A DNA stretch of 64,000 nt from Idiomarina loihiensis (GTDB taxonomy: Bacteria; Pseudomonadota; Gammaproteobacteria; Enterobacterales; Alteromonadaceae), in the NCBI RefSeq assembly GCF_024584785.1, contig NZ_CP074112.1, forward strand, positions 1,302,001 through 1,366,000, written 5' to 3'. This document shows positions 40,654 to 43,034 of this stretch, piece by piece; position 1 is the first letter of the stretch, and each line of letters begins with the position of its first letter. Under the pieces are notes generated by a model. It saw only the letters and a list, made by a program, of their open reading frames with translations. It had not been told where the DNA came from and searched no databases. Position numbers and translations under genes: made by a program.

Positions 40654-40779
40654 TTATGCTGCAAAAAATTTATACCACGCCAATACCGCAGGTAAAGCCG
40701 GTACGGCAACAAACGTAATTACCGCAAGCCAGCCCATTTTTACGCCCGATTCGTCTCGGAAATCTTCATTATGTGCCAT
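40654..40779 (-). CDS. 41-aa predicted single-pass membrane peptide
   Basis: A short open frame encodes 41 residues starting MAHNEDFRDESGVKMGW, followed by a hydrophobic helix (residues 17-35, rich in Val, Ala, Leu, Pro) and a short YKFFAA end. GAGGA is correctly placed before the ATG. It begins 45 bases after the hvfC-like stop and ends 24 bases before the response regulator, with no terminator in either gap, so it may be part of one transcript. I do not recognise the family; function unknown. Confidence 0.65.
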   Translation of the reverse strand: MAHNEDFRDESGVKMGWLAVITFVAVPALPAVLAWYKFFAA

Positions 40780-40824: not shown

Positions 40825-41628
40825 TCATTCGGGCGCGAGGAACAACACACAACGCTGCATTAACCCCTCAACCACTGTCACTAAGGCTTGCGCTAGTTGC
40901 TCTGGTTGATAGCCGACGGCGTAGGGCTGGAGGCTAGCCAAAGCAGCACGCAAAGTGCTGCCGTTAGCCTGCTGGAGAGTCTCCAACAACACCATTGTAA
41001 GCGGCGTTAGTTGCATAAATTTGACAGCTTCGTGTTGCTGCCAATGAGGCTGCGAGGTCAACTCACGATAAACCACCAAGCACACAGGTTCAGCTGCGGC
41101 AGGCGGTTGTGGATTAGCCGCACTCACTTGCTGCACAGGGTACTGGAACACGCCCAATTGGACACTTGGATTCACCCGGAATTGCACTCTATCGAGTAAC
41201 TCATTTGCGCTCGGTGCAGGTTCGGCCGCGGCGTTAGTAGCGTGCAGCAACTGATAATCCACCTCGGCATACAAAGCGTCAACTTCCATCCGCTCGTATT
41301 GCGCCAACTGAGCCCACACCGCGGGTAACGTTTGCTGCGCAAACGCCACAAACTCACGTCCGATATCGGCAAACAGCGGCGACTGCGCGGCGTGTTGCTG
41401 CATAAACTGATAGATCAGCTGTTGCCATTGCTGCTCATTGTGCAACTGTCGCAATACCGGGAAGCCACGGCTGATAAAGCTATCTATGTTATTAAAAACC
41501 AAGCGCTGATACACAGCTAAACGCCGAGGTTCAACGCCTGGAAGGCTACCTTGGTTAGGAGCACGAATAGCGGCCGCCCACTGTTGCTGCAGCTCACGCC
41601 AATCAGGACTCGGTTTGTTAGTTGCCAT
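40825..41628 (-). CDS. hvfC: DUF2063 MNIO partner protein, HvfC-like
   Basis: 267-aa protein with the N-terminal DUF2063 domain (AVYQRLVFNNIDSFISRGFP, FADIGREFVAFA) and a more variable C-terminal domain. In characterised MNIO systems this protein binds the precursor and is required for modification by the DUF692 oxidase. The start is ATG 41628 (MATNKPSPDW), overlapping the hvfB-like stop by 11 bases; longer frames lie within hvfB. It is the third gene of the hvfABC-type operon. Confidence 0.85.
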   Translation of the reverse strand: MATNKPSPDWRELQQQWAAAIRAPNQGSLPGVEPRRLAVYQRLVFNNIDSFISRGFPVLRQLHNEQQWQQLIYQFMQQHAAQSPLFADIGREFVAFAQQTLPAVWAQLAQYERMEVDALYAEVDYQLLHATNAAAEPAPSANELLDRVQFRVNPSVQLGVFQYPVQQVSAANPQPPAAAEPVCLVVYRELTSQPHWQQHEAVKFMQLTPLTMVLLETLQQANGSTLRAALASLQPYAVGYQPEQLAQALVTVVEGLMQRCVLFLAPE

Positions 41629-42469
41629 GCAGCGCCTCACCGAGGGGTTGCAGCTGTTGATCAAGCTCATACAGCTCGTTAAGAAGCTCTCCCAAGGGAG
41701 GAATATTGAAATCTCGTTCGAGTACCACCGCAAACGGCCCATGAACCTGCTGAGCTAACTGCAATAACTCCACCACTGCTGGTTTTACCCCAGCACCGTG
41801 GGTATCTATGAGTAAATCGGGAGCTTCTTCATGATGCCCGGCAATATGGCCATAGGTAAGGCGCGAACTTGGTAGTTCGCAAATAAACTGATGCGGATCG
41901 TAGCCCTGATTGATGCTATTAACGTAAACGTTATTCACATCAAGCAATAGCTCACAATCTGCGCCTTGCAAAATGCGCTTAATAAAACTCAATTCATCCA
42001 GTTCTGTAGCAGCACTCGCGTAATACGAAATATTCTCGAGTACCAACGGTCGCTCAATAATTTCCTGTACCCTTCGCACCCGCGCAATCACGTGTTCGGC
42101 AGCGGCTTCGGTAAAGGGGATCGGCAACAGATCATACAAATGGCCACCGACCGAGCAGTAACTCAGGTGTTCACTGTACCGGTTGATACTAAACCTATCT
42201 AAGAACGCCTTGAGGCGCAGCAAAAAAGCCTCATCTAGAGGATCTTGGCTGCCAATGGATAGCGATAACCCATGGCTGCTGATGGGATAATGGTCGCGCA
42301 GATAATCTAACTGGTATTCAGCCAAATTACCGCGCCCCATCCAGTTCTCTGGTGCAATTTCCCACTGAGCGACGGCGGGTAGCTCCGTCAAAACCTGGTC
42401 TAAAAATTCCCGCCGTAAGCCTAATCCTAAGGAGGGTATGGGGTTAGGCGTTAGCGCTGCTCGCCGCAT
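41618..42469 (-). CDS. hvfB: DUF692 multinuclear non-heme iron oxidase (MNIO), HvfB-like
   Basis: 283-aa TIM-barrel enzyme of the MbnB/HvfB superfamily that oxidises peptide cysteines with an iron cluster. Probable metal ligands are all present in order: SSHGLSLSIG (H), SEHLSY (E and H), LENISYY (E), LLLDVNNVYVN (D and N), YGHIAGHHE (H), DTHGAGV (D and H) and VLERDFNIPP (E). Its ATG lies inside the last codons of the precursor gene (19-base overlap), so production is coupled to the precursor. I infer that the substrate is the adjacent EGKCG protein. Confidence 0.9.
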   Translation of the reverse strand: MRRAALTPNPIPSLGLGLRREFLDQVLTELPAVAQWEIAPENWMGRGNLAEYQLDYLRDHYPISSHGLSLSIGSQDPLDEAFLLRLKAFLDRFSINRYSEHLSYCSVGGHLYDLLPIPFTEAAAEHVIARVRRVQEIIERPLVLENISYYASAATELDELSFIKRILQGADCELLLDVNNVYVNSINQGYDPHQFICELPSSRLTYGHIAGHHEEAPDLLIDTHGAGVKPAVVELLQLAQQVHGPFAVVLERDFNIPPLGELLNELYELDQQLQPLGEALHGN

Positions 42470-42876
42470 TTACCTTCGCCGCACTTGCCTTCACCGCATT
42501 TCATTTCTTGCTCAGCTTTGCCTTTCTTTTTGGCATCCATTTTTTCGCGCATTTTTTCGCGCATTTTTTCACTCATTTTTTCACTCATGGCTTCGCCACA
42601 TTTGCCCTCACCACATTTACCTTCAGCTTGATGTTTAGCACGCTTTTCTTGATCGGCTTCACCACATTTACCTTCGCCGCATTTCATTTCTTTGTCGGCT
42701 TTTTTATTAGCCTTGTCTTTACCACCGCCACGCATTTCTTGCTGTTGCTGAGCTGCTTGCTGGTAGCCACTAGGCAATTCACTAAAACCAAACGGATTAG
42801 CTTGCGCCGCGGGTGCAGCAGCACTTGCTAACAAGGCTCCTACAGCTAAAGTAACTGACGTTTGTAGTGCTTTCAT
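42451..42876 (-). CDS. hvfA: HvfA-like EGKCG-repeat RiPP precursor (secreted)
   Basis: 141-aa precursor. A signal peptide (residues 1-26, ending AAQA) precedes a Gln-rich stretch and then a highly charged tail. The tail has seven cysteines (66, 71, 88, 93, 127, 132, 137), all in KCG motifs and five in EGKCG (68-72, 85-89, 90-94, 129-133, 134-138), in three blocks separated by Lys/Glu-rich spacers, one with EKMS/EKMR repeats. In H. influenzae HvfA such cysteines become oxazolone/thioamide copper ligands. GGAG precedes the ATG at 42876. Modification here is inferred. Confidence 0.85.
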   Translation of the reverse strand: MKALQTSVTLAVGALLASAAAPAAQANPFGFSELPSGYQQAAQQQQEMRGGGKDKANKKADKEMKCGEGKCGEADQEKRAKHQAEGKCGEGKCGEAMSEKMSEKMREKMREKMDAKKKGKAEQEMKCGEGKCGEGKCGEQR

Positions 42877-42957: not shown

Positions 42958-42979
42958 GAAATAGATTGCCATAGCAAAA

Positions 42980-43004
42980 AAAACCCCGCACCAGGCGGGG
43001 TTTT
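42980..43004. terminator. Terminator between the TonB2 operon and hvfABC
   Basis: Perfect stem AAAACCCCGC / GCGGGGTTTT with a five-base loop. On the minus strand an eight-T run follows, so it should end the TonB2-TPR transcript and separate it from hvfA. Confidence 0.88.
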
Positions 43005-43034
43005 CATTATCTAACGAACCTGAAAGCTTAAGCC

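Follow-up and report, generated by a model that had tools for sequence, protein, structure and literature searches.

Known EGKCG Systems

Precursor proteins with EGKCG repeats that are encoded together with an MNIO enzyme and a DUF2063/PME1 partner constitute a large known group of about 2,000 proteins (PMC12452194). The published products of this group carry 5-thiooxazoles and generally bind Cu (PMC13097082, PMC12538549). The structure of the Hvf product of Haemophilus influenzae, oxazolin, has been revised to 5-thiooxazole, and the same heterocycle is present in the Ngo product of N. gonorrhoeae and the Fon product of Fontimonas (PMC13097082). DoxX genes are frequent in Hvf/buf clusters and are not obligatory (PMC13097082, PMC12452194). 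Published evidence on the physiological role of such clusters is mixed: excess copper frequently induces these pathways (PMC13097082) and growth during copper stress improves with bufferins (PMC12452194); on the other hand, the mmr proteins of Microbulbifer were undetected by proteomics with or without added copper, mmr protection in E. coli was slight, and those who described the cluster are reluctant to ascribe copper protection to it (PMC12538549).

Organization of the hvfABC Operon

The 64,000-nucleotide stretch of DNA analyzed here (the window) contains, on its minus strand between positions 40825 and 42876, three genes encoding a precursor, a DUF692/MNIO enzyme, and a DUF2063 protein. 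They can be assigned with high confidence to the HvfABC/captophorin type, in a bacterium of the Pseudidiomarina group; the product of the operon would be a Sec-exported 5-thiooxazole peptide that binds periplasmic Cu(I) and most likely buffers excess copper. As a further member of the known HvfABC/captophorin group, the operon is ordinary. Its features are as follows:

42979..43005, minus strand: terminator-like hairpin with a T tail, following the upstream TPR/TonB genes (hairpin scan; same-genus relatives)
42451..42876, minus strand: hvfA-type precursor of 141 aa, with a putative signal peptide (read by eye), the leader NPFGFSELPSGY, and seven KCG motifs in blocks of 2+2+3 (sequence; NF050137)
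42466..42477, minus strand: last EGKC codons of the precursor, GAAGGTAAATGC, holding a Shine-Dalgarno-like GAAGG and the hvfB ATG (42467-42469) (sequence)
41618..42469, minus strand: hvfB, MNIO (DUF692) maturase of 283 aa (PF05114, NF003818, residues)
40825..41628, minus strand: hvfC, DUF2063/PME1 partner of 267 aa with an NGO1945_C domain (PF09836, PF22106, NF050145, 3DEE); its start is an internal ATG chosen by us, the longest ORF being longer

The precursor gene overlaps the MNIO gene by 19 nt, and the latter overlaps the DUF2063 gene by 11 nt. The precursor has exactly seven Cys residues (66, 71, 88, 93, 127, 132, and 137), all of them in KCG motifs, five of which are EGKCG and the remaining two EMKCG; the spacers between the blocks are rich in lysine and glutamate. 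The gene order, orientation, overlaps, and motif counts agree with what a sequence-only reading of this locus had described. In 20,000 shuffles of the mature part, KCG occurred 0.21 times on average and three times at most, versus the seven observed. Read by eye, the mature part is preceded by a predicted Sec-type signal, with cleavage at AQA|N. Throughout the genome, which consists of one 2.9-Mb contig, PF05114 and PF09836 each match once, and NF050137 repeats are found at the hvfABC locus only.

Among the named systems, fontiphorin (fonABC of Fontimonas thermophila) resembles this locus in consisting of a precursor, an MNIO, and a PME1 gene only, with no DoxX, in having seven EGKCG-type sites in three blocks, and in sharing the Arg-Arg and Asp-Phe residues of the enzyme (PMC13097082). 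The block order differs, being 2+3+2 in fontiphorin and 2+2+3 here, as do the variant motifs, which are EAKCG in the FonA 67-80 fragment and EMKCG in two of the seven sites of the window precursor (PMC13097082). Bulbicupramide (mmrABC of Microbulbifer) shares the marine host, EGKCG cassettes, an MNIO and a DUF2063 gene, and a conserved leader; its product binds Cu(I), a property that is predicted for the window product (PMC12538549). The precursor studied there, from Microbulbifer VAAF005, is built from three di-Cys cassettes with six Cys, and other mmr precursors contain five to eight Cys (PMC12538549). The sequence-only reading had considered the layout of the window precursor to differ from that of Haemophilus HvfA. 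As a sign of an unusual cluster this is not upheld: given fontiphorin and the VAAF005 precursor, a 2+2+3 arrangement with charged spacers falls within the known range. Oxazolin (hvfABC of H. influenzae) likewise combines an EGKCG precursor with members of the HvfB and HvfC families (PMC13419390, PMC13097082). However, the window precursor, unlike that of H. influenzae, scores below the HvfA equivalog (NF050188, 32.9 bits, cut-off 95), its NPF...L..GY leader is absent from all ten precursors examined from a Pasteurellaceae-like family (f8, see below), and DoxX (PF07681) has no match in the whole window genome, while seven of 14 control genomes match. The earlier remark that no DoxX gene lies adjacent to the operon can therefore be extended to the entire genome.

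Family Assignment and Conserved Residues

A family search with all three proteins supports the family reading and the general function proposed from the sequence. HvfB passes the equivalog NF003818 narrowly (362.4 bits, cut-off 360; NCBIfam) and also PF05114 (315.6 bits, cut-off 25; Pfam), HvfC passes NF050145 (197.2 bits, cut-off 142; NCBIfam) and matches PF09836 (84.7 bits, cut-off 27.2) and PF22106 (54.6 bits; both Pfam), and the precursor, which is below the HvfA equivalog, passes the HvfA-family repeat domain NF050137 (45.9 bits, cut-off 19.5). Sequence comparison with solved structures links HvfB to 3BWW, 8HCI, and 7DZ9, and HvfC to 3DEE. The nearest relatives among these, 3BWW and 3DEE respectively, have both been assigned to such clusters (PMC13097082). 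A literature search for DUF692 in Idiomarina returned no paper.

By motif matching, Arg19/Arg20, Asp253, and Phe254 of HvfB correspond to FonB Arg15/Arg16, Asp249, and Phe250, of which Asp249 is the catalytic base (PMC13097082), and Asn179/Asp222/His224 correspond to N175/D242/H244 of the published HvfB according to our own matching of the numbering through the 3BWW alignment (PMC13419390). The roles of these residues were taken from the two papers (PMC13419390, PMC13097082). Altogether, 13 metal-site, catalytic-base, and substrate-contact positions were checked. Twelve of them do not vary among the 80 relatives, and Arg20 is kept in 79 of 80. For the rest of the His, Glu, and Asn positions among the 13, the roles are presumed ones. 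The metal-site positions, whose loss the sequence-only reading had named as the sign of a non-oxidase DUF692 protein, are intact. When the 80 relatives closest to HvfB in the genome-contig collection were scanned for ORFs, 66 had a KCG-rich precursor ORF at most 2.5 kb upstream of hvfB, and the other 14 had none.

Position of the hvfB Start Codon

Any DNA that encodes an EGKC repeat (GAR GGN AAR TGY) must include a Shine-Dalgarno-like GARGG and, behind it in another frame, an ATG or GTG. Among 16 distinct genomes of the same genus, 13 have every ATG, GTG, or TTG open to hvfB inside EGKC codons of the precursor, whereas in the other three the sole possible hvfB start is an ATG 3 nt past the precursor stop. 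These counts include the window, leave out three loci that repeat a genome (L002, L003, and L004), and are based on a scan from the preceding in-frame stop to the conserved start of hvfB. Such an arrangement would couple translation of the maturase to that of its precursor.

Upstream Region and Chromosomal Slot

Upstream of hvfABC there is an ExbB/ExbD/TonB/TPR gene group followed by the terminator-like hairpin, and downstream there are an ORF for a 41-aa membrane-type protein, a response regulator gene, apt, and dnaX. Pfam matches support the phosphoribosyltransferase, response regulator, TPR, and TonB proteins among these neighbors, and the names apt, dnaX, and Exb are tentative, being given by the look of the sequences. 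The hairpin suggests that hvfABC may form a transcription unit separate from the TPR/TonB genes. A scan of this stretch yielded three hairpins versus 3.3 in shuffled sequences, i.e., no excess, and a similar hairpin is found in the same place in 18 of 18 same-genus upstream regions compared, three of which repeat a genome; it was not seen in the two Idiomarina upstream regions compared. A TATA-like box occurs soon after the hairpin in several of the same-genus regions. Promoter patterns were sought in 87 upstream regions from loci having an ORF with at least two KCG motifs (84 distinct), excluding three copies of the window locus. A sigma-E-like pattern (GAACTT-N15-GTC), located at -81 relative to the start of the precursor, was discarded as a chance match, since it appears in one of the 87 regions, that of the window, with a shuffle mean of 0.16. 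No copper-responsive, regulator, or other conserved promoter motif was recognized in the upstream regions compared.

Of 25 genomes sampled from this marine genus, 22 have a PF05114 match. The operon contributes a captophorin cluster without DoxX from it. In the three congeners lacking the MNIO gene (G025, G010, and G021; loci L114, L115, and L116, respectively), none of which has an EGKCG repeat match either, the site is empty: the order of TPR gene, hairpin, small ORF, response regulator, and dnaX is kept, with apt matched in two of the three, and hvfABC is missing in between.

The 41-aa ORF (40654-40779, minus strand) lies between hvfC and the response regulator gene, falls below the threshold of the ORF list, and encodes one likely membrane helix. 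It has a match at E of at most 1e-3 in 26 of 122 loci, a count that includes the window's own locus, some repeats, and three loci without hvfABC.

Leader Tag and Orphan EGKCG Proteins

The leader tag and the EGKCG proteins without an adjacent maturase are the part of this analysis most worth specialist attention. In the precursor set collected first, which was gathered via hvfB or MNIO-bearing loci, [LM]..GY is present within the first 70 residues of 84 of 84 distinct precursors and NPF in 60 of 84. A wider search with the HvfA model in 394 genomes of the order gave matches in 109. From these, 98 genomes plus one further genome (G033) provided the 101 loci from 99 genomes that were analyzed, the other 11 being left out due to a place not listed, a contig edge, or presence in another set; for L137, L141, and L142, longer stretches covering the same genes were used instead. 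With hvfB adjacent, the motif is present in 71 loci and absent in ten, all of which belong to family f8, i.e., 71 of 71 outside f8 and zero of ten inside. Family f8 is presumably Pasteurellaceae, since it holds nine of the ten genomes above the HvfA cut-off. Where hvfB is not adjacent despite at least 900 bases of room, the motif appears in one of 17 loci. The sole orphan with the motif (L254) belongs to a genome (G092) with MNIO genes elsewhere, one of them beside a second precursor. Three further loci lie at contig edges, one with the motif and two without it: L240, whose leader reads L..GF and whose genome carries an MNIO gene on another contig, and L256, from a genome without MNIO. The Fisher value for motif versus hvfB adjacency, 1e-16, overstates the independent evidence, because the orphans come from two families (f1 and f7) with possibly one origin. 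The main-text passages of PMC12452194 and PMC13097082 considered here contain no statement of this correlation.

L..GY is not a universal leader, as it is absent in the Pasteurellaceae-like f8 and in 16 of the 17 orphans. The highly conserved MmrA leader has been modelled to engage the RRE of MmrC (PMC12538549), which fits a possible recognition role for the leader motif. However, the tolerance of FonBC to single alanine changes before the core, in a shortened substrate that may or may not hold the motif (PMC13097082), and the motif-free f8 precursors speak against a strict role.

The 16 motif-free orphan loci come from 15 genomes. They were covered for 2.3-3.7 kb downstream and mostly for only about 0.3-0.6 kb upstream. 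Nine of these genomes (G033, G226, G192, G387, G105, G379, G388, G287, and G397) have neither an MNIO nor a DUF2063 match, while the remaining six have both at other places; absence of MNIO is defined here as PF05114 giving no hit at E 0.001, with assembly completeness of 92-100%. Six orphan loci (L153, L211, L212, L216, L230, and L232) have apt/dnaX neighbors as at the window operon. Whether bufferin precursors unlinked to MNIO genes are matured by enzymes encoded elsewhere or go unmodified has been left open (PMC12452194); for the EGKCG proteins of the nine genomes without MNIO and DUF2063, the present data point to "not by this route".

We lean, by a modest degree, towards two functional kinds of EGKCG proteins split by the leader tag. 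Those with NPF...L..GY would be HvfBC substrates, and the tag-free, MNIO-free kind, which also occurs in genomes with neither MNIO nor DUF2063, would bind metal through thiols left unmodified. Family f1, to which the window belongs, has the two kinds as well as the empty site in a single chromosomal slot; thus, maturation may have been gained or lost in place. The L..GY tag would then provide a simple sequence test for EGKCG peptides expected to carry 5-thiooxazoles.

In seven orphan loci of family f7 (L200, L202, L215, L250, L260, L262, and L263), the EGKCG gene is followed by a probable lipoprotein gene and, further on, by a response regulator-like gene. The sequence DPWEGWNR or DPWENWNR occurs in six of these seven putative lipoproteins, which may be MlaA/VacJ-like.

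Proposed Function and Alternative Explanations

HvfC, as an RRE-type partner, would present the precursor to HvfB in the cytoplasm, where this multi-iron oxidase would convert up to seven KCG cysteines into 5-thiooxazoles with the loss of 4 H each. The modified product would reach the periplasm via Sec and bind Cu(I) there, most likely serving as a buffer for excess copper. The genes, their family membership, the intact residues, and the conservation in relatives were observed in the DNA, whereas the 5-thiooxazole chemistry and Cu binding are carried over from published relatives; separate transcription, export, modification of all seven Cys, and copper buffering are inferred. Points that count against this reading are the narrow margin of HvfB over its cut-off, the low HvfA equivalog score of the precursor, the mmr results, and the absence of a recognized copper-responsive or conserved promoter motif. 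With regard to the chemistry, the loss of 4 Da per Cys proposed by the sequence-only reading stands, and the oxazolone/thioamide pairs do not, as published relatives carry 5-thiooxazole (PMC13097082).

The same chemistry might serve a role other than copper detoxification, such as protection from oxidative stress or from stress by other metals, or a function that is conserved yet seldom expressed. This is a minority possibility that deserves some weight given that the mmr proteins escaped detection despite added copper (PMC12538549), that such clusters have been tied not only to copper but also to gold and to oxidative stress (PMC13097082), and that the window genome already encodes five Cu-type P1B ATPases; it is weakened by the general Cu binding of characterized products and the frequent induction of these pathways by excess copper (PMC13097082). 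Copper acquisition, in which the product would act as a chalkophore taken up via the TonB/ExbB/ExbD system encoded just upstream, appears improbable. The ExbB-ExbD-TonB-TPR group does directly precede the operon in the window, and TPR adjacency recurs in eight of 80 genome-contig loci, many of the 80 having too little upstream DNA to reveal it. However, all eight loci also have dnaX downstream, and seven of them apt, so that the adjacency looks positional, resulting from a common chromosomal slot; the TonB and TPR genes remain in the three congeners without hvfABC, and the terminator-like hairpin separates the two units. A functional link between hvfABC and TonB was thus rejected.

Least credible of all is a precursor that stays unmodified and binds copper through plain thiols in the manner of a metallothionein, with HvfBC dispensable. 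The EGKCG proteins of the nine genomes without MNIO or DUF2063 do indicate that such repeats can be kept without this maturation, but these orphans lack the L..GY motif that the window precursor possesses, and hvfB and hvfC are intact and overlap adjacent genes of the operon.

As an additional observation on the copper proteins of the window genome, the five Cu-type P1B ATPases exceed the TIGR01511 cut-off, two of them being counted from two pieces each (contig G000:C1, e.g., 1144853-1148401). A further TIGR01511 match at 1144853-1145587 of the same contig is partial and contains one in-frame stop.
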